Shown here one piece after another: positions 13,441 to 56,600 of a stretch of 64,000 nucleotides of DNA (the stretch's first letter is position 1; each line of letters opens with the position of its first letter). Under the pieces are notes generated by a model. That model made no database searches. It was not told the DNA's origin and saw only the letters and a program-made list of their open reading frames with translations. Source of the DNA: Anaeramoeba flamelloides (taxonomy: Eukaryota > Metamonada > Anaeramoebidae); assembly GCA_027625915.1 (NCBI GenBank), contig JANTQA010000060.1:3348001-3412000 (forward strand), given 5' to 3'. A program made the position numbers and the translations under genes.

Positions 13441-14070
13441 GTTTTGAATAAGTGTAATTTAATTAATCATCATAATAATAAGTGGCGAGTTTTTATTTTA
13501 AAAGTTTGATTTTTTAAATAAAATTAATTATTAAGCAATTCCACAATGGGTTTCCTAAAACTAATAAATTCAAAAAAAAAAATTCTTGTCAGGAATTTTT
13601 TCCATGTCAGGTATTTTTTTCAATACTATATATTTCTTTTTGAGAAAAGGCCTCCTAATATTTGGTTTTTAAAAATCATAAATTCCCAAAAATTTTGTTA
13701 ACTTTTTTGGTTCAAATTCAATTTTTTTATTTATGGTGTACCAACTTTTAAAACATTTTTTCAAACGAAGCATTGTTACCAACTAATTTACAAGTTTTAT
13801 TTGTCCTATGAAACCTAAAAAATTCTAATTTTAAACTCAGAAATTCATTTTCAAAAATAGGAAAGTGAACAAAAAAGTTAAAAACATTTGTATGAATTTA
13901 TCAGTATTAAAAATAAAAAATCATGTCCTGGATTATTTTGATGTCAGGTATTTTTTTTAATCCTCTAGTTGTTGTTTTCTTTAGTTTTTAGTTTTGGTAT
14001 TTTTTTTTCTTTTAAGGATTAGTAACTCTTTTTAATTGTTGTTTTCTTTTCCCAAAGGTAATAGAGTAAT
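13441..14070. other. Spacer left of the mannosidase fragments
   Basis: No gene. A short motif CATGTCAGGTATTTTTTTCA recurs here at about 13600 and 13940. The block GGTAATAGAGTAATTA just before the next MITE is the inverse of sequence at about 11040, so this too is repeat-derived. Nothing resembling the missing mannosidase 5' exons is present. Confidence 0.55.
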
Positions 14071-14269
14071 TACATCAGTTCCACTTTTAAGAAACAAACT
14101 TTAAACGAAATTTAAGGCACAAAAAATTCTCAAATTAAGGCACAAAATTTGTAATTTTTTTTTTTACAATTTATTTTACTAGAATCTGAATTTTGTGCCT
14201 TAATTTGAGATTTTTTTTGTTCCTTAAATTTCGTTGAATGTTTGTACCTTAAAAGTGAAACTGACTGTA
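14071..14269. mobile_element. Family A hairpin MITE, copy 2
   Basis: TA-flanked, full length, with near-complementary arms. Its right end lies directly against the first recognisable alpha-mannosidase codons. Confidence 0.85.
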
Positions 14270-15604: not shown

Positions 15605-16486
15605 TTTGATTACTATTTATTAAATAATTTATTTTTTATTAATGTGGAAAAATCTATTTTTTTTTTTTTATTATTCTTCTTATTTTTTTAAATAAATCTT
15701 TTTTTTTATTTTTTTCATTGATTAAAAAAATATATGTATATATTTTTTTTTTCATTTTAAAAAGGTCTATTTTTTATTTTTTGTTTTTGTTTAATAAATT
15801 GAATTTGATAAATTTTGAACAAAAAAAAAAATTCCAAAAATGTAGAAACAGTTTAAACACTTGAAAGAATAACAATAATGTACTTACATTCAATTTGGAA
15901 ATAATTTTTGATTTTTCAAACGATTTTTTCATTTTTTATCTTTTTTTTTTTAGTTTTCATATCCTTTTTTCCAGTTAAATTATCTTTTTCCATGGATCTG
16001 GGATTTTTTTTCGAATGATGGTTTATAGAAGGTTAGTGTTAATTTTGTCAAATATAAAAATCACATACAATTAGTTGATGTATTTATTTGATCAATCAAT
16101 AATTCTTGGTGAAATTTCAACAAATTTACCAAATAATTTTTTATTCTGTTCTTTTCATCATTTTGAACTCTTTGATTTTTATTTTTTCATTTTATATTTT
16201 TTTATTTAATTTGGATAAAAATAATTACTTCTCAAAATATTAATATTATGTAAATCAAATGTATTTTAATCTTATCTTTCGAAAATATATAAAATTTTCT
16301 TTAATTTTTCGAAAACTAAATGATGTATAAAACTTTTCCAAGTACTGTATCTAAAAGATATTTTAGATACTATTTAAATGGGGAGGCAAAATTTTAGTCA
16401 CTACAAAATTCTCTTTTAACCAGACAAAGTTTCCAACAATTAGTTCTTCGCAATTAATCCAAAAACGCAATAGATTCAGAATTTAT
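15605..16486. other. Spacer with a partial family F element (about 15840-16250)
   Basis: The segment 15840-16250 matches, in the same orientation, the element at 60728-61242: CAGTTTAAACACTTGAAAGA, then TTAGTGTTAATTTTGTCAAA, then TGGTGAAATTTCAACAAATT. Its far terminus is eroded. No gene is present; the T-rich DNA just after 15604 is presumably the mannosidase 3' flank. Confidence 0.55.
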
Positions 16487-16687
16487 TACAGTCAGTTTCA
16501 CTTTTAAGACACAAACTTTCTACGAAATTTAAGGCACAAAAAAAATCTCAAATTAAAGCACAAAATTCAAATTCTAGTAAAATACTTTGTGAAAATTAAA
16601 ATTCCAAAATTTTGTGCCTTAATTTGAGATTTTTTTGTGCCTTAAATTTCGTAGAAAGTTTGTGCCTTAAAAGTGAAACTGACTGTA
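16487..16687. mobile_element. Family A hairpin MITE, copy 4
   Basis: TA-flanked and full length. The arm has TTTCTACGAAATTT where most copies have TTTCAACGAAATTT, and the change is mirrored in the other arm. This suggests arm-to-arm correction or a subfamily. Confidence 0.88.
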
Positions 16688-16778
16688 TTATTATTTTTGA
16701 TTCTTGTAATGTCCGAATTTTAGGACATGGGATTTACTTTCAATATTTGTGATTCTACTTAAACTACAATTCAAAAAT

Positions 16779-22023: not shown

Positions 22024-22770
22024 ATGTATAAGAATAATTCCCAGGATCTGGAAGAGAAAACTACCCCACCTGTTAAAAAAATGAGTTCAAATATATGTAC
22101 CTTATTGCTGATGTTCACCTTGTTTTTATTGATCACCGTAGCCCAATTCATTGCGTCCTTTGTTTCCAATTCAAACGCACTCTTAGAGGACTCTTCACTA
22201 ATGGCTGTTGACACGATGTCGTACCTCATTACAATTCTGTCAGAAAAAGGCAAAAGAACAAGCAAAAAAAAGAAGCTGCTGGTAAAAATAATCGCAGCCT
22301 TCCTCAGCATCCTGATTCTCTTTGCGATCACCATTTGGGTACTCATTGAAAGTGTTAAAAATATTGTTGATCAAAACCACGACAGGGAAGTTGACGGGAA
22401 AATTGTACTGATTTTCTCGATAATAGGGCTCGCCATCGATCTCACCTGTATCTTCAATTTCTACCGTAACAAAAGGAAAAATAAAAATGATCAAATCACA
22501 AAGCTCAATATGAATTCGTCACTTTTCCATGTACTTTCCGATCTGTTACGCTCCTTTTCAACCTTGGTTGAATCAATTTTGATCATGTACTTCAAAGTTG
22601 AGCCTGGCATAACAGACGACATCGTCAGTCTCATTATTTCATCATTAATTGTTATGGGCTCGTTCCAAATGTTCAAAAAGATCTTTATCAAATACAGGCT
22701 ATATAAAACAGATCAATTAGTGGACATTAGTCTTGCTTTGAAATCTCCCGAAACAACATCTTTACTTTAA
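22024..22770 (+). CDS. Cation diffusion facilitator (CDF/ZnT-like) transporter, short form without C-terminal domain
   Basis: 248 residues with about six hydrophobic segments (roughly 24-45, 49-72, 86-110, 126-146, 166-190 and 199-218), the CDF layout. The SNSNALLEDSSLMAVD block (48-63) matches the usual GSxALLxDxxHxxxD of TM2, but the metal-binding His is Leu59 while Asp63 is kept. TM5 has the canonical pair His169 and Asp173 in FHVLSDLLRS. The cytosolic metal-binding C-terminal domain is missing: only about 30 residues follow TM6. CDF proteins exchange Zn2+, Mn2+ or related ions for protons across organelle or plasma membranes as dimers. The altered TM2 site makes metal choice, or even transport activity, uncertain. 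The start is the first ATG after in-frame stops. The gene stands alone, with GC-richer codons than its flanks. Confidence 0.8.
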   Translation: MYKNNSQDLEEKTTPPVKKMSSNICTLLLMFTLFLLITVAQFIASFVSNSNALLEDSSLMAVDTMSYLITILSEKGKRTSKKKKLLVKIIAAFLSILILFAITIWVLIESVKNIVDQNHDREVDGKIVLIFSIIGLAIDLTCIFNFYRNKRKNKNDQITKLNMNSSLFHVLSDLLRSFSTLVESILIMYFKVEPGITDDIVSLIISSLIVMGSFQMFKKIFIKYRLYKTDQLVDISLALKSPETTSLL

Positions 22771-27842: not shown

Positions 27843-28043
27843 TACAGTCAGTTTCACTTTTAAAGGCACAAACTTTCAACATAATTTAAGGCACAAAAAA
27901 AATCTCAAATTAAAGCACAAAATTCAAATTCTAGTAAAAATAAATTGTAAAAAAAAATTCCAAATTTTGTGCCTTAATTTGAGATTTTTTTTGTGTCTTA
28001 AATTATGTTGAAAGTTTGTGCCTTAAAAGTGAAAATGACTGTA
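27843..28043. mobile_element. Family A hairpin MITE, copy 11
   Basis: TA-flanked and full length. Both arms share the variant AACATAATTTAAGG / CCTTAAATTATGTT-type change, another compensatory pair. Confidence 0.88.
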
Positions 28044-31834: not shown

Positions 31835-34800
31835 TTAAAATTCAATTTCTTTAGATTTTTTTAATTTTATTTCTTTTCTTATTTCAATCCATTTTTTTAA
31901 TAGTTCTGTGACATTACTATTATCTTCGACCAACTGTTTAGTGTTGTTTGTATTATGATTTTTTTTATATTCTTTAAAAAACTTTTCATTATTCTTTATT
32001 ATTTGATCAAAGTGATAAAATTGAGTTTTTAAAGAAAATTTTTCATTATGGACTGGTATAATTACTTTTTTTAATGCAGGAAGAAATCCACCTAATAATT
32101 GATGAAATAATTTATTATATTTTTCAAATTTTTTTCGTTCCCTCCCATTCATTTTTTTATGAGTCTCTTCAAATGCGTTTTTTTCAAAATATTGCGCGGT
32201 TTCTTTGATTGAAAAATTATTAACCTTAATTGGAATAATTTGGATCATTTCCATATCAAGCTCAGATTGTGAAGTGAGTAATATGTCTCCATTAATTTGA
32301 TTAAAATACATTTTTTTTAGTAGGGTATCAACATTATCAAAAACTATCAATCTTTTGAGCTTTGAAACATTATTTGTTTGATAATTCAAAAAATTAGATA
32401 ATCTTTTTAATATTTCAATTCCTCCTTCAGTTTTTTTTGCTAAATTTTTTTTGTTGTCACTTTGATTGTATGGATTTAGATCATTAGATAAATTTTGAAA
32501 ATCCTGTATTAGTTTTTCTTCACTTTCACTGTTAAACCAAAAGATTTGATCATAATATTTAGAATGTCTATCAATATATTCAATACACAAATGTGTTTTC
32601 CCAATTCCTGATAACCCTGAAATTAATAAAATTATGGTTTTTCCTCTCATTTCTGTGTTAAAATATTGTTCAATTTTCTCTAATAATTCAATTCTTTCAA
32701 CAGGATTTTTATTTCTATTTGGAATTCCCCATTTAAATTCATAAGATTTTCCCACTTCTTTTTTTCTCTTTTTCTTGGTTAGATTTTTATATTTCTCCTC
32801 TTCAGAATCATTTTGGTTGGTATCTTTCTCAATATCTAACTTTTCTAAACATTGTTTTAAGAAATAAGTTATTTTATTAATTTTCGGTCTTTTTTCGGGA
32901 TTCGGATTCCAACATAATTTGATTAATTCCTCAAATTTTTTTGGCGTGTCCTCTGGAATTTTATCTCTTTCCCCCTTTCGGATTTTCCTCTCAAATACTT
33001 CTTTGTCTTTTATCTCCTGAAAAGGAACTTTCCCATTTGTACTCAATTCATAAAAGATAATACCAAGACTGTAAATATCACATTTTTTATTATATTCTGT
33101 GATCTTTGGATTTAACATTTCCGGTGACATATACCGATGAGTTCCGATTTTTTGTTTTTTTGTATTTCCATTTGGATTAGATGTAATAAATTTTGATACC
33201 CCAAAATCACATATTTTGGCTGTTATTGTGGAATTTTCTTCCTTAATTATCTTTTCTGTAAATCTTGAATTATCTTGGTTGGGATCAGTCGTACATTGAG
33301 ATTGGATTTCTTTAGTGGACTCGATATGTAATAAAATATTACCTGGTTTTAAGTCAAGATGTAAAATATTTAACCTATGCAATTCTCTTAAACCATAAGT
33401 GATATCAAGGGCAAGTTTTATTTTCTGTTTCCAATTCAATTCCTTTTTTGGCTGTTTCTTTTCCAAAAATGATTTCAATTTTGACTTTTTCTGTTTTGAA
33501 TTTGATTCCTTCTTTGACTCTTCTGTTTCCATTTTCAAAAAATAATCTCTTAGTGATCCATAATTGCAATATTCCATTATTATTGAATAAGGATCATAAC
33601 ACATACCTATTATACTAACCAAATTTGGGTGTCTTAATTTAAATAAAATTGAGACTTCATTCTTAAATTGTGAATTTATGGATTTATTTTTTGGTTCAAT
33701 GTTCAATATTTTAATAACAGCAGGGTTGTTCTGTACACGTGTTTTAAAAACATTTCCAAATGTACCTTCACCTAAATAATCACCTTTTTTTGGTAATTCG
33801 TATGAATTAAAAACATATTTCTCAAATAGATCATCATCCTCATCTACTGTAATTGTCTCTGTTGAAGATAGGAACTTTCTTGAGTTGTAGCTTGAGGTGT
33901 TTGAAAATGTATTCTTAAAAGTACTAAAGTAAAATGAAACATCAAGATCACCACCATCAGCTTCTTCATTTTCATTTTCATTTTCATATTCATCTTCTTT
34001 TTCATTTTGTTCGTTTTCGTCTTTACTATGATCTTCTTCTTTTACTTTTTGTTCCTTTTTTTTTTCTGTTTGATTCGTATAATTTTCCTTTTCTTTTTGA
34101 GTTTCCATTTCTTGTGTTTTTTTTTGATCTACTTTTGGTATTTCTATTTCTTGTTCTTTGTTGGGTTTTTTGGCTTCTTGATTTTGAGTTCTTTTTCTAT
34201 CGCTTTGATTTTTGATTTTTTCTTTTTGCTTTTTTTCATCTACATCTTTTCCTTGTTCTTGTTCTTTTTCTTCTCCTTTATTTTTTTTTTTTTCTAATTC
34301 TACTTCATGATGTTTTGTTTCTTTTTTTTTAATACTTTCTTCCAAATTAGAAATTGAAATTGATTCATCTTTGTTGAAGTTTTGGCTCATTAAAATAATT
34401 GTTTTATCCTTTAAAAAAGTTGATTTTGGGCTTATATTATCTCCATTTTCTCTCTTGTTTTCTTGTTTTTTTTCTTTTTTCATTTCTCTCCTTTCGTGTT
34501 TTTTTTTCTTCTTTTTTTTATTGTAGAAAGAATAATCATTAGGATAATTTTCTTCCAAAGTAGAAATTGAAATAGATTCATCTTTGTTGAAGTTTTGTCT
34601 TGTTAAAATAATTGTTTTTCCATTTGAAAAAGTTGATTTTGGGCTAATATTATCTCCATTTTCTCTCTTGTTTTCCTGTTTTTTTTTTTTTTCATTTCTC
34701 TCTTTTTGTGTTAGTGTTGTCTTCTTTTTTTTATTGCCGAAAGAATAATAATTAGGATAATTTTCTTCCAAAGTAGAAATTGAAATAGATTCATCTTTGT

Positions 34801-34918
34801 TGAAGATTTGTATTATCTGTGTTTGAAATATTGATTCTTTCTCGTTTTCTGGTTCTTTTCTTTTTATCTCTCCCCCGACTTTTTCTTGCAAGCCTTTATT
34901 TATTTTTTTTTGTGTCAT
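31835..34918 (-). CDS. TKL-like protein kinase fused to a STAND (NB-ARC-like) NTPase; no TPR domain
   Basis: 1,027 residues from the ATG at 34918. That start is preferred over 34966 because its context (AGTAATACATATGACACA) is the same as at the start of the divergent partner gene. Residues 39-190 hold a 71-residue tandem repeat beginning FNKDESISIS, followed by a Glu/Lys-rich linker to about 325. The kinase spans about 372-690: Gly loop GEGTFG (383-388), Lys403 in AVIK, HLDLKPGN with Asp522, a 40-residue insert with NQDNSR, DFG Asp571, and MSPE. All catalytic elements are present. A P-loop NTPase follows (about 725-935): GLSGIGKTH with Lys774, Walker B-like RLIVFDNVD, and a TSQSELD segment. 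The protein ends soon after a degenerate GGFLPAL motif (GxPLAL in the family), so it lacks the winged helix and repeats found in its partner. Likely a cytosolic signalling kinase regulated by a nucleotide switch; substrates are unknown. Confidence 0.88.
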   Translation of the reverse strand: MTQKKINKGLQEKVGGEIKRKEPENEKESIFQTQIIQIFNKDESISISTLEENYPNYYSFGNKKKKTTLTQKERNEKKKKQENKRENGDNISPKSTFSNGKTIILTRQNFNKDESISISTLEENYPNDYSFYNKKKKKKKHERREMKKEKKQENKRENGDNISPKSTFLKDKTIILMSQNFNKDESISISNLEESIKKKETKHHEVELEKKKNKGEEKEQEQGKDVDEKKQKEKIKNQSDRKRTQNQEAKKPNKEQEIEIPKVDQKKTQEMETQKEKENYTNQTEKKKEQKVKEEDHSKDENEQNEKEDEYENENENEEADGGDLDVSFYFSTFKNTFSNTSSYNSRKFLSSTETITVDEDDDLFEKYVFNSYELPKKGDYLGEGTFGNVFKTRVQNNPAVIKILNIEPKNKSINSQFKNEVSILFKLRHPNLVSIIGMCYDPYSIIMEYCNYGSLRDYFLKMETEESKKESNSKQKKSKLKSFLEKKQPKKELNWKQKIKLALDITYGLRELHRLNILHLDLKPGNILLHIESTKEIQSQCTTDPNQDNSRFTEKIIKEENSTITAKICDFGVSKFITSNPNGNTKKQKIGTHRYMSPEMLNPKITEYNKKCDIYSLGIIFYELSTNGKVPFQEIKDKEVFERKIRKGERDKIPEDTPKKFEELIKLCWNPNPEKRPKINKITYFLKQCLEKLDIEKDTNQNDSEEEKYKNLTKKKRKKEVGKSYEFKWGIPNRNKNPVERIELLEKIEQYFNTEMRGKTIILLISGLSGIGKTHLCIEYIDRHSKYYDQIFWFNSESEEKLIQDFQNLSNDLNPYNQSDNKKNLAKKTEGGIEILKRLSNFLNYQTNNVSKLKRLIVFDNVDTLLKKMYFNQINGDILLTSQSELDMEMIQIIPIKVNNFSIKETAQYFEKNAFEETHKKMNGRERKKFEKYNKLFHQLLGGFLPALKKVIIPVHNEKFSLKTQFYHFDQIIKNNEKFFKEYKKNHNTNNTKQLVEDNSNVTELLKKWIEIRKEIKLKKSKEIEF
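34345..34804 (-). repeat. 213-nt in-frame tandem repeat in the kinase-NTPase gene
   Basis: Two full 71-residue units start at Phe39 and Phe110, and a third partial unit starts at Phe181. Each opens FNKDESISIS(T/N)LEE and ends with ENGDNISPKSTF and a KTIIL strand. The Lys runs vary most between units. Confidence 0.85.
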
Positions 34919-36266
34919 ATGTATTACTGAAATATTCCTAGGAAAAAAATGTTTTTCTTGATTCAATATTTAACCTTAATCTTCTCTGAAAAACAATTGT
35001 TTATATTCTAAACTTATCCTCTTTATTTTTTTTTAATTGGTCTTTTTTCAAAAAAATTTCAATTGTCGTCAAAAAAAAAAAAAAAATAATATAAAGTGAT
35101 CACCATGATAATTCTTGACTATTTATGAAGTATTGTTCCGAAATTGCAAAACGAAACGAAAATTTTTTGATCAAAAATAAAACTCTTAGTTTTTGAATGT
35201 ATAATTTCAATTGGTCAAATGATTGCTTTGTTAGGTTTTTGTTTTTCAAAAATATAGCCATTGAAAAAACCTGTTGGATTTTTTGAATTGATCATTTCAC
35301 CATTGTGAAAAAAATTTGGGTCATTAAAAAAAATTGGGTCAGTCAAAAATTTGTTTTCGTTTTTTAAATAATAAATTTTAGCAAAATGGTTTTTGATCAA
35401 AGTAAAATTTTATGAACAAATCTTACATTTAAGAAAAACCAAAGTCACTATCAATAATAATTTTCAAATGCAATATTAAATTGTTACATTTTAACCTTTT
35501 GGAATTACTGTGGAACTCTAAAAAACAAAAATTTATTTTTAATTGTAAACTTTACTAAAAATGTTAATTTTTTTTTATTAGAAAACATTACAAGATCAAG
35601 TTAATTATTGTTTGGGAAGACCAAAAATTAATAAAAGTTTTAAATTAAGGTTTATCTATGAGGATTTTTAAAATTTAAATGGTTTTTGAAATCTTGAAAT
35701 TTCGGTATTTTGAAGTTTTGATTGTAAACATAAGTGGAAAACAACCTCTTTCGAAAAAACATCTTTTTTTGGAAGAATTTATGATTCAATTGGGTTTAAA
35801 AGGATATTTAAGATTAACTGTGATAAATTTACGTTTATTAACAATGATAAATATCTTATTGAATTAATAGATTTTGATATTTCCTATTAAATAGTTCTCT
35901 TATTTTTAGTAAAGTTGGCAATTAAAAATAAATTTTTGTATTTTTGGAGTTCCACAGTAATTCCAAAAGGTTAAAATGCAACAATTTAATTTTGCATTTG
36001 AAAATTATTATTGATAATGACTTTGGTTTTTATTAAATGTAAGATTTGTTCATAAAATTTTACTTTGATCAAAAACCATTTTGCTAATATTTATTATTTA
36101 AAAAACGAAAACAAATTTTTGACTGACCCAATTTTTTTTAATGACCCAAATTTTTTTCACAATGGTAAACAAGAGAAGTTTAGAATATAAACAAGCACTT
36201 TTCGATAATTAACAATAAAGAATCTAGAAAAAACATTTTTTTCAAAAGATTATTTTAGTAATACAT
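34919..36266. promoter_or_regulatory. Shared divergent intergenic region of the kinase and pseudokinase genes
   Basis: Both genes start at opposite edges of this 1.35-kb interval. Close to each start lies the same sequence in mirror orientation: AAGTTTAGAATATAAACAA at 35014-34995 (-) and 36176-36194 (+), about 72-77 nt before each ATG. Then come AAAAAACATTTTTTT and AGTAATACATATGACACA at the start. This implies the two genes were copied with their proximal promoter. Everything between is either unique spacer or the inserted element at 35299-36166. Confidence 0.6.
35299..36166. mobile_element. Family I long-inverted-repeat element (868 bp) inside the shared promoter
   Basis: The ends ACCATTGTGAAAAAAATTTG and its complement are near perfect, and the arms pair for about 250 nt (35299-35545 and 35907-36166). 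The 360-nt centre has a short coding-like stretch at 35582-35671 (LQDQVNYCLGRPKINKSFKL). It follows a pyrimidine-rich tract ending TTAG, and may be a relic of an element-encoded protein. No conserved transposase motif is recognisable. Confidence 0.75.
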
Positions 36267-39200
36267 ATGACACATATAAACAAAAATGAAGACTTTCTTG
36301 TACAAGTAATAAAGAAGGTTAAAGACAAAAAAGAGAATGGAAAGAAAACAGGTGAAAAAACCATTCAAATCAAAACTTTTTCAGAATATAAACAAAAGAA
36401 AATAGATAAATTAATTGAAGACAAGCAAAATTTGCGAAATATTGAGAAAACAGACATTACAGAAAAAATCTTGGTACACAATAATCTTTCAAGTGCAAAA
36501 TTGGATCACCATTCAATACTCATTAAGGAATTTAACCCTCAAAATGAAAATCAATTTGAAGATTTTATCAATGAAATAAGGATTTTAACAAGACTAAGGG
36601 GGCTGATTTTCGTTAATATCATTGGGATATGCACAAATCCTTATTATATTGTAATGGAGTATTGCAATTCCGGATCCTTGAAAGATTATCTGATTGGAAT
36701 AAAAAGCCAAAAGAAGGCATTTGAATGGAAACAGAAAATAAAACTTTCCCTTGATATCGCTTATGGTTTAAAAGCTTTGCACAGGTTAAATATTTTACAT
36801 CTTGACTTAAAATCAGAAAATATTTTGTTGAATATTTTGACTACGAAGACGACACATTCTCAATCTATGACTGATCGTAACCAAGATAATTCAAGATCAA
36901 CAACAATCCTAATTAACAAAGAAAATTCCAAAATAACAGCCAAAATATTTAATTTTGCTAAATCAAAAATTATTACATCTGATACAAAAAGAAATACAAA
37001 AAAACAAAAAATGGGAACCTCTCCATATATTTCACCCAAAAGGTTAAATCCAAAGATCACAGAATATAATGAAAAATGTGATATTTACAGTCTTGGTATT
37101 ATCTTTTATGAATTGAGTACAAATGGAAAAGTTCCTTTTCTTAATTCGAAAAATGAATTTTTTCAAAAGTTTCTGAAAGATAAGGGAATTCAAGAGGACA
37201 CACCAAAAAAATTTAAAGATTTAATCAAATCATGTTTAGCTCCGAATCCCGAAGAAAGGCCAAAAATTGATGATATTGTTGATGAGTTAAAGGGTATAAA
37301 CAAAGTTCAAAAAAATTTAAATAATTTTGATCTTGATAGTTTTGATAAAGATAAAAAAAAAACCAAGAAGAATAAAAAAAAGGAAAAAGGAATTTCTATT
37401 CAAATTAAATGGCGAATTCCAAATAGAAATAAAAATCCTGTTGAAAGAATTGAATTATTAGAGAAAATTGAACAAAATTTTAACACAGACATGAGAGGAA
37501 AAACCATAATTTTATTAATTTCAGGGTTATCAGGAATTGGGAAAACACATTTGTGTATCGAATATATTTATAGACATTATGAAGATTATGATCAAATCTT
37601 TTGGTTTAACAGTGAAAGTGAAACAATACTAATACAGGATTTTCAAGATTTGTCTAATGATCTAAAGCCATACAATCAAAGTGACAACAAAAAAAATTTA
37701 GCAAAAAAAACTGAAGGAGGAATTGAAATATTAAAAAGATTATCTAATTTTTTGAATTTCAATAACCTGAACAAAAAGCTCAAAAGATTGATAGTTTTTG
37801 ATAATGTTGATACCCTACCAAAAGAAATGTATTTTAATCAAATTAATGGAGACATATTACTCACTTCAAAATCTGAGCTTGATATGGAAATGATCCAAAT
37901 TATTCCAATTAAGGTTAATAATTTTTCACTGGATGAAACATTCCAATACTTAGAGAAGCAATTAAAACCAAGAGCTAGAAATATCAATTTTCATGATTCT
38001 AAACAAAATTCATTGATATTTAATGAAAAGGAGAAAGGTTATGCAAAAGAAATCCATAATTTATTAGATGGGTTTCCTTTAGCTTTATTTCAATCAACTG
38101 GGTATATGAATCATGGGAATGTTTCCATGAAGGATTATATTGATAATTTTAATAAATGTCGAGAAATTATTTTTCAAATTGATTTTAATAATAATAACAA
38201 CAATAACAATAACAATAACAATAACAATAACAATAATAATAATAATAACCAAAATGCAATATTCACAACATTAAATTTAAATTTAGATCTCATTAAAAAG
38301 GATCCCAAAATTGAAATTGATGATAAAAAGAAATTAATAAAATTATTAAATTATATTTCATTTTTATATCCAAAAAATATTCATTTTGAATTCTTAATGC
38401 AACTTCTTAAAATTAATGATGAGGATTTACTTCTCAGATTATGTAACCTTTTAAAAAAAATTAATATACTTGATTATCAGATGGGATGTTATTCAATTCA
38501 TAAACTGTTACAATTAGTAATAAGAGATGCACTTAGTTACAATGAACAAAAAAAGATAATTAATAATTTAATTACAATTTTTATTTCTAAATTCAATTTT
38601 GATGCAAACAATATGATAGATTGTAAAAGATATCAAATATATATATACCATATTCTTGAATTGTTAACCAATCCCAATAATAGTGAAATAATAAATTTGA
38701 ATTTAAATAATGTTAAATATTTAAATTTAATAATAGGTATTTATTTCTCAACATATAATATCAATAACGAGTTATCTTTAAAATATTATGATAAATCAAT
38801 GACTATCTTTAAAAATTCACTGATAAATGCTTTAGATAAGAAATTACATATGGTAAACATTTTAAATGCCAAGGGAGCGATTTATTTACGTAGATTAAAT
38901 TTTGATTTATCCTTGGAGTATTTCTCCAAGGCACTAAGTATGCTCGATGAAATTGGTGATTATGAAAAATCAAAACAGTTTAAAAAATTAATAACATATT
39001 ATGTGATTGGAGGTATTTGTTTAAATACAATAAAAACATATACAAATAAAGATAAAGATAAAAATCAAAATCCAATTCAACATTACCACAAATTAGCCAT
39101 GGTTTGTTTTCAAAAAATCATTAAAAATTTACAAAAAAATATAAAAAAAATGAAAAATCCTCTCAAAATAAAAATTTATAGTAATATTGGTGAAATATAT

Positions 39201-42200
39201 CATCAAAAGTTCAACTTTAAGTTATCTTTGGATTACTTGTCAAAGTCTTTAAAAATATGCAATAATATTTTAAAATTTAAAAACAAAAAATTGAAAGAGG
39301 CAATAATTATTTTTTTTATTTGCATCATATCTTTAAATTTTATCAACAAAATAAGAGACAAAGAAGGCAATGTTGATGAAAAAAAACAAGTCAATGGTAA
39401 AAAAAATGTGAATAAGAATAAGAAAATGAATAATATCAACAAAGATAAAAACAATGATATTAACAATAATAAAAAGGATTACTCTGGTGTGAATATTGAA
39501 AACAATAAACCGAATCGAAATATAAATAATAGTCTGATTAACCACAAGAACAATAAAATTAATACTAAATTTGCTTATGGTTGTTTAATAAAATCACTCA
39601 AATTATTTAACAAATATCAAATTTCAAATTCTGAATATAAAGAAAAATCCATTCTTCTAAATAATATAGGGATGACGTATTTAGGACTTGAAAAACATGA
39701 TCAAGCTTTAAAATTTTTGGATGAATCAAAAATATTTTTTAAAAAAAGTTATGGGAAGGATAAATTTAACAAGAAACATCCATTTGTTGCAATAAACTTT
39801 TTACATATGGGAATTATTTCTAACAAACTAGAAAAATATAATCTAGCTTTAAAATATTTGAAGAAATCGCTTAAATTAATGAAAAAGAATTATAAATCAA
39901 AAATTCACAATAAAGAAAAGAATAGACACAACTATTTATACCAAGTTTATCAAACTATTGGTTCAGTTTATATTAATCTATATAATTTTGAGAAATCTAC
40001 AAAATATTTAAATAAGGCTAGAAAAATTAATAAAAAAATCAATCCAAACTATAAAGAAATTAATAATGATTTAATAATCAATCTTCATAATTCTGGAACA
40101 GTTTATCTACAACAATCAAAAGATAAATTAGCCTTAGAATATTTTGAACAATCATTACAATTGGCAAGGGAAAAATATAAAGACAGACAAAATAACCATC
40201 CAATAATTGCTGCTAATCTCAACAAAATCGGTTTAATTCATCTCAACAAAGGCAAAAACCTTAAATTAGCCTTGGGATATTTTAAAGAATCCTATAGAAT
40301 ATTTGAAAATATGGGTCAAACAGAGAAACATAAAGAAATCATTACGATTTTGAATAATATTGGTGAAATTTATATGAAAAAAATCTGAATACGATCTATC
40401 TTTGAGATATTTAAAAAAGTCATATCATCTTGGGAAAAAACTTTTTAAAAAGAAAGACCACTCGGTAATTTTAACAGCTTTGAAAAATATTGGTTTGGTT
40501 TATACACGAAAAAATAATTTTACAAAGGCTTTAAAATATACTAACAAATCATTAAAACTTTTGAACAAAAAAGAATCGGTGCAACTGAATAAAAAGGATC
40601 ACAGATCTAAACGATCAAATGATGAGAGGAATGATGATCAAAATAAAAAACAATTATATAACCTTTTAGAAAGAGCAGAATCTTTGAAGAATCTTGGTTT
40701 TATTTATCATGAAAAAGCAAACTATAAATTAGCTTTGGAAAATTTTGAGCAATCTTTACAACTGTTCCAACAAGTTTACCCAAATGGAAATAACATCCAA
40801 ATTGCTCACGTATTACACTCGATTGGTTTAATACATTTGGATCTTGCCGATTATAAATTGGCCAAATATTATTTACAATTATCATTGGGGAACTTTAAAA
40901 AAATGTTTCCAGATGGAAAAAACAATGAAAATCCTGAAAACCCTGAAATTGCTTTAATTTATTTCAGTCTTGGGAAGATTTCTTATCGACAAGAAAAGTA
41001 TGATGAAGCCTTAAAAATATATCTACAAAGTTTCAAGACTTATCAGTCCATATACCCAGAGGAAAAGGAATATAATCATGATATTGCAATTCTAATGAAT
41101 GATATTGGTAATATTTATTTATTTCAGCGAAAATATTTCCAATCCCGACATTATTACCAAAAAGCATTAGCAATTGCAAACCGGATTTATAAAGATGATC
41201 AAAATAATGGTCTAACTTCAACAATTCATAACAATATTTTAATATTAAATTCATTGATGGGAAATCATGATTATAATAACCAAAACCAAGAAAACTGCAA
41301 TGGTTTGAACAAGAACATTGACAAGAATAAGAATAAGAATAAAAACAGTGACATGGACAAGAATAAGAATAGAGGTTTTATTGTATCAAATAAAATTAAT
41401 AGTCATTTACAAGAGTTATTCAAAATATTAAAAGGTGATCAACTCAGATATAATACACAAGATAATCATCCAAACATAGCAATAGATCAGAATAATATTG
41501 GAATGGAATATCTAGATATGAGGCAATATGATTTAGCTTTAGAACGTTTTAAGATAGCTTTAAAAATACTAAAAAAATTTAAACCAAAAGATCGAGATCC
41601 AGATATTTTCAAGATTCGATATAACATTAGCTATATTTATTTTCAAAAAAAAGAGAATGATTTGTCAATAAAAAACTTTAAAAAAGCTCAAAGGGTGTTA
41701 AACAATCTCAACAATTTGATGGATAAAATATATTTTGAAGCTGAAATTCATAATTATTTAGGACTTAACTATAAATTCAAAGGAAACAATATTGAAAACC
41801 AAAATTTGGCTTTGGAATCTTTTCAAAACTCTTTAATGATATTAGAAAATATCAATAATCATAAAAAAAATTATTTCAAATTAAAAGCGTCTAATTTTGA
41901 ACAAATGGGAAGAATTGTTTTTAATGATAAAAATTATTATTCTGCATTAGATTGTTTCCAAAACTCTTTAAGTTTTTACAAAAAAATTTTTGATTCCGAG
42001 TATAATGCCACTATTGCAAATATATTAGCAAAGATTGGATATACATATTATTTATTACAAAAATATGAACTTTCCATAGAAATTTACCAAAAATATTTTG
42101 ATATATTATCTAAATTGAAGAAGAATGGAGATCAATCATTTGATTTAGACAATTATCTTAATGAGATAGCTGATCTATTTTTGAAAAGTAGCAAATATAA

Positions 42201-42234
42201 TTTATTTTTAAAATATTTTGAAAAATATTTCTAA
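36267..42234 (+). CDS. Pseudokinase fused to a STAND (NB-ARC-like) NTPase, winged-helix region and long TPR array; one frame break
   Basis: Two frames (to 40388, and from about 40384 to 42234) join into 1,988 codons if one A of the 7-A run at 40377-40383 is surplus. The join restores a perfect TPR (NNIGEIYMKKSEYDLSLRYL). Residues 60-345 are kinase-like: Lys87 and HLDLKSEN (Asp180) remain. However, the Gly loop is gone, DFG is NFA (Asn229) and the APE Glu is Lys258, so catalysis is unlikely. The NTPase (about 375-590) has GLSGIGKTH with Lys426, RLIVFDNVD and GFPLAL. A poly-Asn run of more than 20 residues starts near 640. A winged-helix-like segment follows, with YSIHKLLQLVIRDAL (about 740-755) as in NB-ARC-TPR proteins. 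From about 790 to the end there are well over a dozen TPRs with two Asn/Lys-rich loops. Such proteins are intracellular ligand sensors that oligomerise on nucleotide exchange. The partner gene is divergent and shares the 5' flank. Confidence 0.87.
38182..38252 (+). repeat. AAT/AAC trinucleotide repeat coding for poly-Asn
   Basis: Codes for more than 20 consecutive Asn residues between the NTPase domain and the winged-helix-like region. It mixes AAT and AAC codons, so it is not a freshly expanded pure microsatellite. Confidence 0.9.
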
Positions 42235-44324
42235 AATTTAATTTTTATGTTATTTTTTTCTTTTTATTTTTTTTTTAACTTTACTTTTTTTTTATTTTTA
42301 AATTCCTTTTTATTTTATTTTTATTTTGATCAGACAATAAATTCTGCGGTGATAAAAATATTTTTTAAATTAGAAATGTAAGAAGATAGAAAGTGGTTCA
42401 AATAGTAGTGATGTTGTATTTAAATATGCTTCATAATCTAATAGAAAGGGTTATCTTGTTACAGGAGATATCTAACTAGTATTTGGGGGGTAGAGTATGA
42501 TTTCAATAGATAAGGATTTAATTTTTGGAATTATGACGAAGTGATTTTTCGTGATTAAATAAAATATATATCATTTATATTCTTAACTGAAAAAATAATT
42601 GTAAAAACTAAAAAAAATAATTATTTTCCAATGGGGTTATAGAGGATCTATATAACATTTCAATTCATTTAGCAATTAAATATTTGGAATTTTTCTTCTT
42701 TTCTTATCATTTTTTCTAATTTTGTTTTCCAAATTATTTATTAATTATTTTTCATTTACTTGTTTCAGAGAAATAGGAAGTAATTCTTCCCCTATAAATA
42801 AATCAATAAATTTCATTTTTTAGGTTTATTTTTAAGATTCTTGGTAACTTGACTATTTTTAAATAATCTTTGTGAAAATTTTCAGACATGTCGGCAAGAG
42901 TCAATATGAATGTTGTAAAAAATAGAGTTTATACAATTTTAGGGATAAATAAAGAGTTCCATTCATTTATCGAAATTTGGGTAATAATAAATAGAATAAC
43001 TGATTATCTTAATAGTCTAATAATAATTTTAATCAAAAAATCTATTGGTAAACAACAAACTTTCAATTTAAGAATTAAATTTTAATGAAATAATTTTAAG
43101 TCAAGAGAGCTTAAAATTTTTTTCATTAATTAATAAGGGTAGAATCTATGATTTTACACTTAAATTCCTAAAAGAGAATTGAAGTAAAAGGATACTCAGA
43201 GTGTAATTTACACTTCTTCCTCATCAATAAAAAAAAAAAAATAGAAAACAAACTTTCAATATTTGAAAAAATAAAATTTCAAACAAAAGTGATGTTGTTC
43301 ACCAAACTATTTTATATTAGAAATCCCTTTGAGTTCAAAAATCAAAACTGGCGTTTGGTTTTACTAATACAAAAATTTGGATAAATTCATGGAATTCCTT
43401 ATTTATCTCTAAAATTATATAAACTCTATTTTTTACAACATTTACTATTTACAATTGTGTTCGGGAAATATTTTGATTATCGAAAATATAATCTTGGTAA
43501 ATATTAACAATTATAAGAATGAGTTGTTTTTTTTTTTTTTTTTTTGAATTTTATTGAAATAAATCATGGAAATTTTACTTTTCAACTTTTTATTCATCTA
43601 TTGAACCATTTTTCAAGACGTATATGTGGTCTTTAGAAAAGCTAATTATAGTTCTACTTGAATAGTAAGTTTTATTTGGATAATCTTATATTTTCAGAAT
43701 AAAGAGAAAAATAAAAGAAAAGTATTGGGTTGTTTTCAAAAGTTTTAAATTAATTGATTAAAATCATTGATTTTAATTTCTGGTTTTGAGGTGTAGAAAC
43801 TTTAATGGTATTACATATTCTAGAATTTGTTAATTTTTTTTAATAAAAAAAAAGATATTTAAAAAATAAAAGAAAAAGTCTTACTTTAATTTATTTGTTT
43901 TTTTGTTGACTATTTAATCATTTTTCCCCCCCCAATAAAAAAGGAGTTGTTTTTAATTTATGCTTTTTAATATACAACCTGTACTTAAAAAAAAAACAGA
44001 TTAATTTATCCAAACTTTGTGTGCCAAAAATATTTCAATCATTTTTATACAATTTAAGGTGTATTTCAACATTTTTAAATAGGTTATTTTCTGTAAAAAT
44101 TCTAAATTCATCAATAGTCTAGAAATAATATACTGTAAATTTATTTGTTGTTTAAAAAACTTTTTTTTCAAATATATTAAAATTTTTTAAAACAGAAATA
44201 TATATAACAAGTAAAATACAAAACCCTCATAATTCTAAAGCTAGAATAATTTTGCTATATTTTTTTTAAAACTCAAACATTTTATTGTGAAAATCTCAAG
44301 TATATAATTCTAGACAACTACTAA
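42235..44324. other. AT-rich spacer right of the TPR gene
   Basis: No gene is supported. The open frame at 42888-43085 has spacer-like composition. A run of C residues (TTTTTCCCCCCCCAATAAAA) stands out at about 43924. Confidence 0.5.
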
Positions 44325-49329: not shown

Positions 49330-52300
49330 TTAATCTGAACTAGAATCAGAATCAGAATCAGAATCAGAATCAGAATTAGAATCAGAATTTTCAATTTTTT
49401 GATCGTTTAAATTTTTTGTATTTTTTAATTTGGAAATAATTTTGTCTTTTTCAATTAAATTATTTTTTAATTTTTCATTCTCTTTTTCAAATTTTTCTAT
49501 TTCTTTCTTTAACAAATTGTTGTTTTCATCATCAAGATTATTCTTATTATTGCTTGGCATTATATTCAATTCAAGATCAGTGTTATCACTGTTATTTGAA
49601 GAAGAAGTTGTTGATAAATTAATTTGATTTTTATTTAAATGAATATTGTTTTGTGTTTTTTCTTGTTTGGAATTTTTAAATTTCTGTATTTGTTTTTTTT
49701 TATTCCACATTTCTTTTATATTCTTCCGTGTCCCAATAAAAGTGGTTATGATCCCAATTGGATAGAAAATTGAATATAAAATGTTATCTAATTCATTAAT
49801 TCCAGAGGTAACCATTGCAATTAAAATTAAATTCAATCCAATTGTAATAAAATCTTCAGGTGCTATCTTTTCCCATATTGATTTAACATTTCGGTTTTCT
49901 CCATCGATTGGTGTTAAAAATGGATAGGGTTTAAATATGATAATGATGATTGTCATTAATGTTATCAATGATAATATTGAAATTAATAAAATATTTTTAT
50001 GTTGCAGACTAATCAAAATTGGTAATATAATTATGAATAATTTAAAAAATATTTTTGGGATTTCCCACCAGTATCTGTTTGGTTTATAAAATTCCCAAAG
50101 CCAACCAAATCGTTTTTTCCAATATTTTGAAAAATTGTGTTTTTTACTAATAATTAAAATGATGATGAAAAATATTGGAATTGAGATTGAATAGAAATAG
50201 AGGAAAAACAAAAACAGTGGATAATATTTTTGATATTTCTGATCATCAGTGGAAATATTTGGTGCATAATTTAAAGTGTTTTTATCTATTCCATTTTGAT
50301 AAGTAGTTTGCAAAGGTTTTGCACAAATTATTATTTCTGGAATAAATAAATATCTTAACATGATTGAAATTAAATTGCAAATTGAAATTATGTATTTATT
50401 TGTATCAATAAGTTGATTATTGGTTATTGGATCTTTTGTATTTTTTGTTGTTGTTTTTTTTGTTGTTTTTTTTGTTACTGGCATTTTATTTTTGGTTTCT
50501 GTTTCAATAGATGATGATGATGATGAGGAAGAGGAGGATGAGGAGGGCGATTCTTTTTTAATTTCATTTTCATTTGATGATGATGATGATGATGATTGTG
50601 ATTTCTTTTTGATATTATTTATGTTTGTATTTTGTTTTTTGATTTTTATTTTTCCCTTTTTGACAAGAAAGGAGAACACAAGATTAATGATTTTGATAAT
50701 TAATAAAATTAACAAAGCTAATAAAATAAAACAGATTGGAAATAAAACCATGATTAAATATTTGGAATAAAAATCAAAATTTTTATAGCATTCTGGTGTA
50801 ACTATTGTCGAGATTTCAAAATTAAATATTGAAGTCGAAGAAATAATATTTGAATTGATATATTCTGGCCAATTGATGCTCATTGTTAAAATTGTGGCTA
50901 ATAATTGAAGAAATGTCAAATATATTTCAAAAATGGGATTTTTTTTTAATAATAACAAATTTCCAATTTTGTTTCTGAATATATATATCAAGATAATCAA
51001 CAGCACGATGATAATCAAATAAATGATCCAAATCCAACTTGGTCCACATTTTTTTACATTGGTTATTTCTTAAATAATAGTTATCCATGCAATCCGAACA
51101 AAAGGTGTCTGGGTCACGCCCATCAGCACATTTACCTCCCTCCAGGCATATATCTGGGAGCCCACATTTTAAGCAATAAGTTGCTCCTTCGATGTTATTA
51201 AAATAATCGTTTTGGCAAGGAGAGCAACTTGAATCCAATGTGTTGTTTTTTATAATATCCCTTCCCACATGGCTCACATTGGTCTTGCGCATCGGAAGGT
51301 TGGTATCCAATACTGCACAATGAACAGCTCGTTGAATTAATTTGGTTTGAAATTTTATTACTTTCACAGGTCTTACATCCATAAATACCTTTTAAACCTT
51401 CAGTTTGGCTATATGTTCCTGTGGGGCATGGGTCACATGATTCGATTGTTGTTGATCCAAATTTTGCATTATAAAATCCCTTGGTGCAATTAGTACACTC
51501 AGATTCGTCCGTTAGCCCTGTTTGATCGCTCCAGGTACCTAGGGGGCATTTTTTACATGCAGTATCAAAACTAGTTTCTCCTTCTGTATCTCCATAGCTA
51601 CCTTTGTTACATTCTACACAAGATGTCATATTTGTATTTGGTGAATAGCTCCCAATCGTACAATTTGGGCAATTGGCTTGGCCAGTTTGGTTTTGATATG
51701 TTCCCTCTTGGCATAACTCACATGAACTTTGGCCTTTTAAAGGTTGATGACTGCCAATATTGCAATCACTACAATCATTTTCTGATTCCGAATTTGTGTT
51801 TGCATTAAAAGTTCCAGCTGGGCATTCTTTACAAGAGGTTTGATGAATTTCGTCTTGATATGTTCCCTTCTGGCACCCCCAACAACTTGCACTGTTACTT
51901 TCATTGCTATAAGTGCCTTTTGTGCAATTTTTGCATACACTTTGACCCACTTGATCATTATACGTTCCCTTGATGCATACTGAACAATCATTTTCTGATT
52001 TCGAGCCTGTATTTACATTATACGTTCCCATTGGGCATCTTTTACATTCTTTTTGTGCCACTTCATCATTATATGTTCCAATATCGCACACTAAGCAAAC
52101 ATCTATTGTTTTCGAGCCATTAAGAGGATTAGAAGTTCCAATTGGGCATTCTTTACAAGAGGTTTGATTAGTTTCGTCTTGATAGGTTCCTTCTGGACAC
52201 AATGTACAAATACTTTCAAATCCTTGGTAATATCCTTCCTCACATATACATTCAGTTAATGATGATCCATTGTACATTTGCATGAAAATCCCATTTAATG

Positions 52301-53636
52301 AGCCATCTTGTTCATTACTTTGCCAAGTGATAACAAAATTTTCATCACCTTCACCAATTGATGTTATTTCTGGGTTTATTTGATCTAGATTTGTATAATT
52401 ATTGACTGGATATTCTTCTCCAATTTTTCTTGTTTCGAGACTTGCTGTATTGAAATTGAATTTTTGGGCATAAATCCCATATTCTGAACCATCTTGTTCA
52501 TTACTTGTCCAAGTTATAACAAATTGTTGATCGTCTCCGTTTTGTGCTAAAGCTGTGATTGATGGGGTTTGCTTTTCGCCAATAGTTTCTGTATTTATGC
52601 GAAATTCAATATCTCCCCCAACCTTCAGTCCATTACTTGAATTAAATATTTGTGCATAAATCTCAGGTACTTCATCTTCTTGATGATAACTTTGCCAAGC
52701 AATAATAAAATAATTTCCATTATTTAAAGAACAAACTTTTGGATTTGTTTGATGTGAATCAAAAAAATGATTGACTTGAAATTCTTCTCCAGTTTTGTTT
52801 CCACTTACACTCGAAAATAATTGTGCATAAATTTCATATTCCTCTTCACCACCAGATTGACCATCGCTTTGCCAAGTAATAACAAAATTTTCTTTTCCTT
52901 CTCCAATTGAGGCGATCGATGGAAACTTTTGCTTGCCCTCTGAATAAGTGTTAACCTGGAATTCGTCTCCAATTTTACTTCCTGTATTTGAATCGAAAAT
53001 TTGTGCAAATATTCCATATTTTTCACCATCTGGACCATAACTTTGCCAAGTAATAATAAATTTTTCTTTTCCTTCTCCAATTGAAGATATTTTAGGAAAT
53101 GTTGGTTCGTCAGAATAAAAAGTATTGGCTTGAAATGTGTCTCCAATTTTGGAATAATCATTAGAGCTATAAATTTGGCAATTAACAGAACCACCTCTAT
53201 TAGCCAAATATTCGTACCAACAAATAACATATTTTTCGTTGTATTCCCCAATGGCACATATTGATGGGTTTTCTAGGAGAGAACTATTTGTGTATACTTG
53301 TATTTCTGTTCCAATTTTGGCACCATTCAAACTTGAAAAGATTTGCATTTGGATCGTATATTTACCCTCATTATCAGTTAATTGGCTTTCCCAAGCAACA
53401 ACAAATTTTTCATTAAATTCACCAATTGATGCAATTGTTGGGTTCTCTTGTTCGTTGGTTGTATTTGTGTTAACCATTTGTTCTGTACCAATTGGGGGTG
53501 GCTGGACAAAACATTCTTTTGAGTTTATTTTGTTTACAAGAATTAAAACAATCAAAACAAAGATTAAAACAAATTTCCTGTTCGTAAAATAGTTGCTATT
53601 TAATTGAAGAAACACAATTTTTGGACATTTTTTCAT
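49330..53636 (-). CDS. Large surface receptor-like protein: signal peptide, WQS repeats, ephrin-receptor-like Cys repeats, multi-pass membrane region
   Basis: Reads as one gene of 1,434 residues if one surplus A is ignored in each of two sense-strand runs (51246-51251 and 51049-51055). The corrected junctions read GYYKNNTLDSSCSPC and NQCKKCGPSWIWII. Start is the ATG at 53636, giving a signal peptide with core FVLIFVLIVLILVN. About residues 55-445 carry seven repeats of some 53 residues of the type SIGEG-ENFVITWQS-GQDG-YGIYAQIF. About 450-860 hold Cys-rich repeats (CPEGTYQDETNQTSCKEC), the GCC2/GCC3 ephrin-receptor-like type. About eight hydrophobic segments follow from residue 867, with Ser-rich and Lys-rich loops, then a charged coiled coil and a Ser/Asp tail. 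The N-terminal part should face outside or a vesicle lumen and bind a ligand or surface. No kinase or other signalling domain is visible in the tail. Confidence 0.85.
49340..49375 (-). repeat. Hexanucleotide repeat coding for the Ser-Asp tail
   Basis: Repeated TCAGAA on the + strand encodes (Ser-Asp)n at the receptor C-terminus. Confidence 0.85.
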
Positions 53637-56600
53637 TTTGCAAAAAAGAAAAAAGGAAAAATAAGGGTTTTTTTTGAGGAAAATGATTTTATTTTGTCCA
53701 ATCAATTTTTGAAAACAAATATATTTTTTTTATCCTTCAAAACTTTTTGCTTTTTCTGTTTTAAAGAATAATACTATTTATTATAAAAAAACATAAACTT
53801 TTTTTTGACTTTTTACAATAGCTCTTGCAAAAGATTCGCAAAAAATTAAAGAAAACAAATTGTTGTCAAAAAAAAAAACACAATTGATTTGGAAACTTGG
53901 AAAATTTCTTTTGTCAAGATCTGTGGTGTTGTTTGTTTTTGTTTGAGAAGTGTGTTTATTGTTTGTTTTTGTTATCAAATGAAAGGAACTAAATTTTCAT
54001 TCAGCTTTTCACAAAAAGATTTGTAAAATCAGGTAACTTTTTAAATTTTTAATTCTGAAAACAAGTCAAAATTTTCAATTGAAAATTTCGAATTGGCAAC
54101 ATTGAGGGTTTACAAAAATTCTTTGTGAGGTATGTTTTGTTTTTGGAAAGTTGAATGATAATTTTGTTCAATTATTATTTTTCAAATTGCAGTCTTCTCT
54201 TTTGAATGATTTTTCTTAATTTGTCCAAAAAAATTTGATACATCTAAATTCTCTTCCATTTTTATCTTTTGTTTCCAAATCTTATCAATTACAGAAGGAT
54301 CCTTTGATACAAATCTAGGGTCATTTTTCCAGGGTTTTGGAAAACAACTGTGTTGTCAATTTCAAGATGTTTCTCACAACTCTCAGTTAAGTCCAAATAC
54401 ACGAAGAAAAGTTTGGATCATCGTTTAAAAAAAGCGTTTTGCAAAGTAACCCTCCAAACAGCTGGAAACCTTCAACAGAAATATTTCAAAAACTCGATTG
54501 AAATTCAATTTTGTCAGCTTTCCCTTTCAATTTCAATTCACTTTTTTTTAAACCATTTCTTTGACACTCAATTCCAACAAAACAAAAATTACCTTTCAAA
54601 AAATTAACTTTTGAAATGACTGATTTATCAAAATTAAAGTTGTGGTGTCGTTAAAATAACCTGTTCGAACTTGGTTCTTTCGTATTGGAAAATAAAACCA
54701 GTGTTCCTAATTTCTGATGAAATTAAGAAGACCTTTTACTTGAAAAGATCAAAGAAACCAAAAAGAAATCATGAGAAAATATATGAGTGGTTTATTAAAG
54801 TTCTTTTATTAAAAAAACTAAAAATTCAAAAATTGAATGATCAAGAATTAAGGACTACGTTTTTATGTGAAAACAGTGGAATAATGTATAAAATCACCCT
54901 TGAATAAGTTATGTAATCCAAATAATATTTGTACAAGGAGAATTTCTTTTAGAAAAAATGTGAAATTTTCACAGTTTCTCAATTTTTGTCTTGAAAGATC
55001 ATGTAAAATTTTGATTTAAATATTTTAGAATTTCCATTTCAACTTTCAGAACTCACACTATTTTCTAGAGCGACTTTACATATTTTTTTAAATTTGCTTT
55101 TAATAGTTTAAAATGTTCTCAAATTTGAAATGCACTTGAAAATCCCCAAAAGACATTTTTTAGTATTTATTTTTTTGTTATTGTTAATTTTCCTTTTCAT
55201 TGAAAAAGAAATAAAAATAATCTTCGTGAAAAGGTCAAGATGACAAAAAATGTTTTTTTTTTGTTCAACCTCTTCTGTGTAAAAATTTTTTGTAAGAAGC
55301 GAAAGTGAAATAACACAATTACTCAAACCCCTCAAGGGTGGGAAAGTAGTCCTTAAATTTAAGGTTTTATTAATTTATGTTTAGATCTAGAAATGTTTTT
55401 ATTTGAATGAGTAAAATTAATTAAAGATAATAAAACAAAAAAATAAACATGAGATGGTGTGAATTTTAAACATCGTTTTCTTTTCTGAATTTCAAACTAG
55501 AAAGATCGCCCTTTCCCCGAATAAACTGTTTTAAACCAAGAATGTTTAAAAGAAAATTTTCAAAGTAGATTTTAATTTAGCTAATTTGTTTTCTTATTTG
55601 TCTTCTGGAATTGAAAGAGTAGAAAGAATCAATTTCCTCTGACCTTCCCGCACCTTTCCTATTTATTATTTTTTTTGAAAAAAAATCTTCTGTTTAAGGA
55701 ATTATTTTTTCAAATTCTGATATCAAAATTTTAAAGAACTAAGCCAAAAAAAAAGAACACACTTGAAAAGATTAAATGAGCAAAGGATTAAATTCAAATC
55801 AAAAAAATAACTTCAAAAAATTCCAACTTAAATAAAAAGAAAATATTGAAATAAATGAAAAAAATCTTAATTTATTACAAAAATCTCAAAAATAATAAAC
55901 AATTATTTAATGTGATTTTAATTTTAATTGAAAAAAAATAACTTGTACTTCAAAATTCACATATAGATTATTTTTCGAATAATAAGAATTCAGAAAAAAA
56001 TAATAACTTTGATTATTTTGAATAAACTTCGATAATTGTAAATCTATATTAACAAAAACAAATATTGATAATATTCAGGATTATAATATAATTATAAATA
56101 AATCCAAAATTAATAAATACTAGGAAATCAAAAATGCAAAAAAATTAAAGATATTCCAAATGGCAATATTTATTTTACATTTTTTTAGAAAGCTGATAAT
56201 TATCAACTAAAGAAAAGAATTTTTAAACTTTTTATAACTATAATTGAAAGTAAAAGAAAAAAATATTTTAAATATATCAACAAATTTTTAAATGTATATA
56301 GCCCGATTCATAAATTATTTGAAAATAATGAATAAATTTAAAAAAATAAACTTTATAATAATAAACAATATCCTAAATTAATAAACCAAATGATTATTGA
56401 TTTGGAAAAAAATCTCACTTTTTTTCGAAAAGGCCAAAATATCAAGAGATAGTCCAAGCCAAATGATTCTAAATAATCTTAATATGAAAACATCTTATTT
56501 CAGGTTTATTAAATTACAGAAGAGAGAGAAACATATATATGTATTTCGTTTTCATAATAAATGGCCCTATTTTTTCTGTTTATTCTTTTATTTGAAGATG

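Follow-up and report, generated by a model that had tools for sequence, protein, structure and literature searches.

Organization of the head-to-head locus

The subject of this study is a 64-kb window (C61:3348001-3412000) of the 254-Mb, 76-contig genome of Anaeramoeba flamelloides, whose genus is a member of Metamonada, and within it two large divergent genes, here named A and B, which share an architecture of a protein kinase domain followed by a nucleoside triphosphatase (NTPase) resembling the STAND (signal transduction ATPases with numerous domains) class. Gene A (31835..34918, minus strand; 1027 residues; P0004) begins at an ATG at 34918 and encodes an N-terminal extension, an intact kinase of the tyrosine kinase-like (TKL) type, a short NB-ARC-like NTPase and a tail of its own. 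Gene B begins at 36267 and consists of two open reading frames (ORFs) in different frames. The first (36267..40388, plus strand; 1373 residues) encodes a pseudokinase, the NTPase, a winged helix and the first tetratricopeptide repeats (TPRs), and the second (40402..42234, plus strand; 610 residues) encodes the remainder of the TPR array. The preliminary description of this DNA had proposed such a divergent pair with common architecture, and our analyses found both genes where it had placed them. An adjacent, divergent arrangement of receptor genes is also the layout that characterizes paired head-to-head NLRs (nucleotide-binding leucine-rich repeat receptors). The PADLOC matches were to the kinase domains.

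The kinase domain of A (32837..33805, minus strand) matched Pfam with an E value of 4.8e-52 and had the full set of catalytic motifs that had been reported for it (GEGTFG at 383, Lys403, Asp522 and DFG Asp571, numbered from the ATG), as well as the conserved Glu and the Glu of SPE. Its NTPase (31838..32737, minus strand) retained the P-loop and had a diverged tail; by Pfam and alignment, there was neither a winged-helix segment nor any TPR, as had been described. The concern that A might continue into TPR exons was set aside: no TPR was matched from the A stop codon to the left window edge, and P0005, a protein of a different A. flamelloides assembly (contig of 795,941 bases), has its C terminus at the same point. 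P0005 matched A from residue 19 to the end (892 of 1025 columns, 87%); its kinase is intact and its tail is the short one seen in A. Because a protein from a different assembly ends alike, the TPR-less form of A is no assembly accident and, judged from these sequences, the truncated form is real. Weak, low-complexity TPR matches (lowest E value 3e-8, obtained without composition correction) were seen at locus L012, more than 31 kb from A.

The kinase domain of B (36423..37310, plus strand) also matched Pfam (E value 3.7e-36), and its structure model (predicted local distance difference test score, pLDDT, 73; predicted template modelling score, pTM, 0.77) matched kinases. The losses listed in the preliminary description were all observed: the Gly loop was gone, Asn229 occupied the position of the DFG Asp (NFA for DFG) and Lys258 that of the APE Glu (SPK for APE; ATG numbering). 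Lys87 (VAIK), Glu103 (alpha-C) and Asp180 (HRD) were retained. With a kinase fold and at least one catalytic motif residue gone, B belongs with the pseudokinases, and its kinase looks non-catalytic. Loss of the DFG Asp was not unique to B, as among the eight kinase domains compared in the genome (A, B, two in C, and those on C22, C37, C13 and C1) it was absent from two, B and C13 (L021).

The NB-ARC-like NTPase and winged-helix segment of B (37404..38537, plus strand) had an intact P-loop, GFPLAL at 602 and IHKLLQ at 744, as expected from the preliminary description. That description had also credited B with over a dozen TPRs. Pfam TPR_12 matched three stretches in the first ORF and five in the second and, as B is divided between two frames, the claim holds if both ORFs are counted and fails for any one reading frame, the array being split at a run of A residues (A-run). 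An intron at this break was ruled out by eye, as the ORFs are separated by only 13 bases, with no visible GT-AG. C-terminal repeat arrays with several TPR_12 stretches were thus found in B and in its paralogue C (see below); A has none.

The start codons of A and B are 1348 bp apart, and 869 of these bases belong to a repeat element (35298..36166, no strand assigned) with terminal inverted repeats of ~265 bp, which is inserted between the two genes. A genome search in which 40 of 722 candidates were scored identified at least 40 full-length copies, that of the window included, and the nearest other copy among the matches listed was 99% identical. Based on the many full-length copies and this near-identity, insertion was probably recent. 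The 5′ leader and start region of A (34890..35025, minus strand) is an inverted match to that of B (36166..36295, plus strand), with 77% identity over 137 columns. The simplest reading is that the head-to-head layout arose through an inverted duplication of leader plus gene and that the element split the pair later. A shared bidirectional promoter was unsupported, as the spacer contains the element and the leader is present separately at A and at B. A 96% identical copy of the element (L045:8628-9496; C22:3606628-3607496) was located ~1.8 kb upstream of a kinase-NTPase-TPR gene on C22. The element therefore lies near a 5′ end at two loci of this family, which may be chance.

Assignment of the NTPase

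The motifs GxSGIGKTH, which we take to be the P-loop, and LIVFDNVD, which we take to be the Walker-B-like segment of an NB-ARC STAND protein, were present in A, B and C, and GxGKT was invariant in seven aligned rows. Foldseek matches to the model of the B NTPase were led by Apaf-1, NRC2 and CED-4, and Dark was also matched; sequence identity to the structure matches was 13-17% in the first 12 rows. Several results speak against the assignment to NB-ARC. None of A, B, C and the C22 protein matched Pfam NB-ARC at an E value of 0.01 or better, and the NTPases of A, B and C had only sub-threshold AAA matches in Pfam. The model of the B NTPase was weak (pLDDT 53, from seven sequences) and its overlays were loose (template modelling scores of 0.32-0.38). 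A relative on C21 was alone in having an NB-ARC match (27.6 bits, cut-off 23.5). A search with the NTPase profile against the sequences of solved structures gave a best E value of 0.005. As the best matches of the B NTPase were Apaf-1, plant NRC receptors and CED-4, we interpret these genes as encoding NLR-like kinase-NB-ARC-TPR proteins. The STAND/NLR-like architecture proposed earlier is supported in this respect by the P-loop, the Walker-B-like segment and the TPR array.

A third paralogue and mosaic structure of the cluster

A DNA search identified a third member, C, on the minus strand 45 kb beyond the end of B (C61:3435371-3443720). C consists of ORFs of 2056 and 690 residues, its frame being broken at an A-run other than that of B. 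Its parts are, in order, kinase 1 (DFN), a linker, an N-terminal extension like that of A, kinase 2 (DFR), the NTPase and finally the TPRs; the DFG Asp is retained in both kinases. A and C were 91% identical at the DNA level from kinase to NTPase. The identity of B to C, measured in 300-base blocks, was 78-83% up to window position 37597 and 95-100% in the tract 37598..42697 (plus strand), which includes ~460 bp past the B stop codon. Based on these steps in identity, C would be composed of an A-like kinase half and a B-like NTPase-TPR half. The pattern differed again in the P-loop region, where A and B were 98% identical to one another vs 86-88% to C.

A run test on 328 variable sites (B residues 78 to 559) gave longest shared runs of 11 for A-B, 48 for A-C and 23 for B-C, which were equalled in 0 of 5000 shuffles. 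Unequal rates, such as a faster B N-lobe or A tail, can also produce long runs, a point that tells against reading them as mosaicism, and the B-C identity step with its matching 3′ flank is the firmer sign. Taken together, the sequence comparisons indicate that A, B and C are a patchwork of one recombining local family. At 39112-39139, B and C differ in length by 1 and 2 bases that jointly restore the frame and alter a few TPR residues. In the 3′ flank of B, ~570-600 bp from 43186 onward are absent beside C, near the end of the common flank.

Probable retention of the B pseudokinase

In a tree of ten kinase rows, the sister group of B comprised A, the second kinase of C and P0005, and the B branch was 0.77 changes per column long. 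The B pseudokinase had no stop codon over this divergence. We simulated neutral mutation of the 314 kinase codons of A at 78% A+T (1000 sequences per level): the sequences still free of stops numbered 6 of 1000 at 0.05 changes per site and 1 of 1000 at 0.1, with none of 1000 left at each of 0.17, 0.3, 0.5 and 1.0. In addition, wherever the coding parts of B and C differed in length, the net difference was a multiple of three, the exceptions being one-base differences at the two A-runs where the frames are broken. Based on the comparison with the simulation and on the multiples of three, we read B as carrying a kept pseudokinase, one that looks to have been retained by selection, and a plainly decaying pseudogene was disfavoured.

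Ratios of nonsynonymous to synonymous changes (dN/dS), calculated by the Nei-Gojobori method with the base bias of the genome ignored, were 0.59 (0.41-0.90) for B-C in the kinase C-lobe, 0.20 (0.11-0.53) for A-B in the N-lobe, where dS was saturated, and 0.52 (0.22-2.24) for B-C in the second TPR ORF. Other values are less favorable to retention. The A-B ratio in the C-lobe was 0.70 with a range up to 1.06 (0.49-1.06), and the young B-C tract gave ratios near 1 or above with wide intervals, namely 2.05 (0.68-9.20) in the NTPase and 1.02 (0.59-2.30) in the first TPR part. The single frame break in each of B and C counts on the same side.

Relatives in the genome and in other assemblies

Genome searches scored 34 of 4315 candidates with B and 33 of 3608 with the C22 protein, and the counts given here are lower bounds. 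At least four kinase plus NB-ARC-like genes were recovered (A, B, C and that on C22), among which the divergent pair occurred once. The C22 gene is a single open frame encoding an intact-looking kinase, the NTPase and TPRs. Over the 10 kb inspected, it had neither a kinase nor an NTPase gene as a partner. A gene on C24 encodes the NTPase with TPRs, and the 9 kb inspected there gave no match to a kinase; its NB-ARC-like NTPase and regular TPR array (L046:2666-5299, minus strand) lie in a frame that is open upstream without an early ATG. The C21 relative has an NTPase with TPR matches downstream. At a further locus (L019:457-3084, minus strand; C37:3770802 region), a kinase is followed by a NACHT-like NTPase with 25.3 bits, just below the cut-off of 26.7, which makes a further combination of kinase and STAND domains.

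The C22 protein and a second protein, P0006, were 86.6% identical over 1449 columns. Orthologs of two A. flamelloides strains average 94.8% identity (PMC11550330), and both A-P0005 (87%) and C22-P0006 fall below this average, if these proteins are from such strains. Searches of protein collections returned A and did not return B- or C-like proteins, and queries with C and with the C TPR half returned no protein named Anaeramoeba. As the C query also missed P0006, a known relative, the absence of B- or C-like proteins is weak evidence. The Anaeramoeba genomes published in PMC11550330 have a high A+T content and expanded gene families, and the main text of that paper does not contain the word "kinase". 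No paper in the searched literature contained both "Anaeramoeba" and "NLR" as whole words.

Interpretation of the A, B and C cluster

We consider it probable that the three genes form a small local cluster which has recombined repeatedly and which encodes NLR-like receptors built from a TKL-type kinase, an NB-ARC-like STAND switch and a TPR array. A and B would have come to lie head-to-head through an old inverted duplication in which leader and start codon were copied too, and later gene conversion or segmental copying would have shuffled kinase, NTPase and TPR parts among the three genes. By analogy with the fold family, the TPR array may sense a ligand or partner and keep the switch off, nucleotide exchange may lead to subunit assembly, and the kinases so brought together may signal. 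In B, a receptor on this view, the kinase module would have been retained to serve as a non-catalytic surface for binding or regulation, and B may mix with A or C via their similar NTPases. A would be a short active form without TPRs and C a complete form with two kinases.

The preliminary description had proposed a sensor/executor split between the two genes. The NLR-like architecture, the kept pseudokinase opposite an active-looking kinase and the reality of the TPR-less form of A are consistent with it, but the functions are not generally split, as C and the C22 gene each carry kinase, NTPase and TPRs, and the mechanism is speculative. A true paired receptor, in which B senses via its TPRs and pseudokinase and signals to the A kinase through NTPase-NTPase contact, is in our view distinctly unlikely. 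It would fit the divergent layout with homologous leaders, the complementary losses in A and B, and C as a fused counterpart in which an A-like kinase is joined to a B-like NTPase-TPR half; a plant precedent is a head-to-head NLR pair with a kinase, as described in the available text of PMC6570958. Against this stand C and the C22 gene, each with both functions in one protein, the single pair among at least four genes, the B frame break and the strong resemblance between the NTPases of A and B. A variant in which A works in trans with B as pseudokinase sensor, C is a cis-fused tandem-kinase version, and gene conversion trades kinase heads and TPR sensors, we judge very unlikely.

The frame breaks at A-runs, the lack of B or C proteins in the collection searches and the dN/dS values near 1 in the young tracts would also be explained if B, and perhaps C, were a pseudogene or unexpressed copy with A a stand-alone kinase. 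The diverged yet stop-free B kinase and the multiples of three in the other B-C length differences make this unlikely. Moreover, the available text of PMC11550330 describes its A. flamelloides genomes as Nanopore-based, so that an error in A-run length is possible, although this assembly may have been made differently. Somewhat unlikely, in our assessment, is that these are STAND kinases of housekeeping or developmental signaling with no role in non-self recognition. STAND switches also drive apoptosis, with Apaf-1, CED-4 and Dark among the structure matches, and the genome has many such kinases; yet A-P0005 and C22-P0006 fall below the strain average for orthologs and the cluster recombines, both of which are expected for recognition genes without being proof.

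Comparison of the probable receptor cluster with described systems identified partial likenesses. In the available text of PMC6570958, barley Rpg5/HvRga1 are likewise two divergent NB-ARC-type genes of which one bears a kinase, but that kinase is C-terminal in a partner with leucine-rich repeats (LRRs), whereas A and B are close paralogues, both with N-terminal kinases, in a family with TPRs. Fungal NLRs with PKinase and TPRs likewise combine kinase, STAND NTPase and TPR modules in clusters, and head-to-head pairs are known among them but rare (13 of 225 two-NLR clusters); these are of a different lineage, and no kinase/pseudokinase pair was seen in the available parts of the two reports (PMC4986451, PMC12258605). 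Plant Pkn-NLRs similarly have an N-terminal kinase on an NB-ARC protein, as far as the accessible text of PMC11218826 describes them, with LRRs where the Anaeramoeba genes have TPRs. Plant tandem kinase-pseudokinases such as WTK1 have two kinase domains per protein, as does C. In the portion of PMC6170490 at hand, the 92 proteins of this class lack any additional conserved domain; C, in which NTPase and TPRs follow the kinases, falls outside the class. Apaf-1, CED-4 and the NRC proteins would share with the weak B NTPase model (pLDDT 53) the arrangement of NB-ARC and winged helix, but their N- and C-terminal modules differ from those of B.

With these findings, kinase-NB-ARC-TPR proteins would be placed in Metamonada, one of them with a pseudokinase and one with tandem kinases. 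Kinase heads and TPR halves have recombined in the cluster, as would be expected of recognition genes. According to the available text of PMC11550330, A. flamelloides houses bacterial symbionts. If A and B do cooperate, receptor pairs that include a dead kinase would be present in a lineage distant from plants.

Other features of the window

No Rfam family or tRNA was found in the 64-kb window. A Copine with a C2 domain is encoded at 3363-5354 (minus strand), a GH38 C-terminal domain was weakly matched at 14780-15601 (plus strand) and a cation efflux protein is encoded at 22024-22767 (plus strand). An ORF at 51201-53705 (minus strand) has seven Ephrin_rec_like stretches and TNFR/NCD3G-like cysteine motifs. 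A repeat of ~205 bp is present in many copies, at least those at 14067-14273, 14612-14817, 16485-16689 and 27843-28043 and others, which match one another in both orientations.

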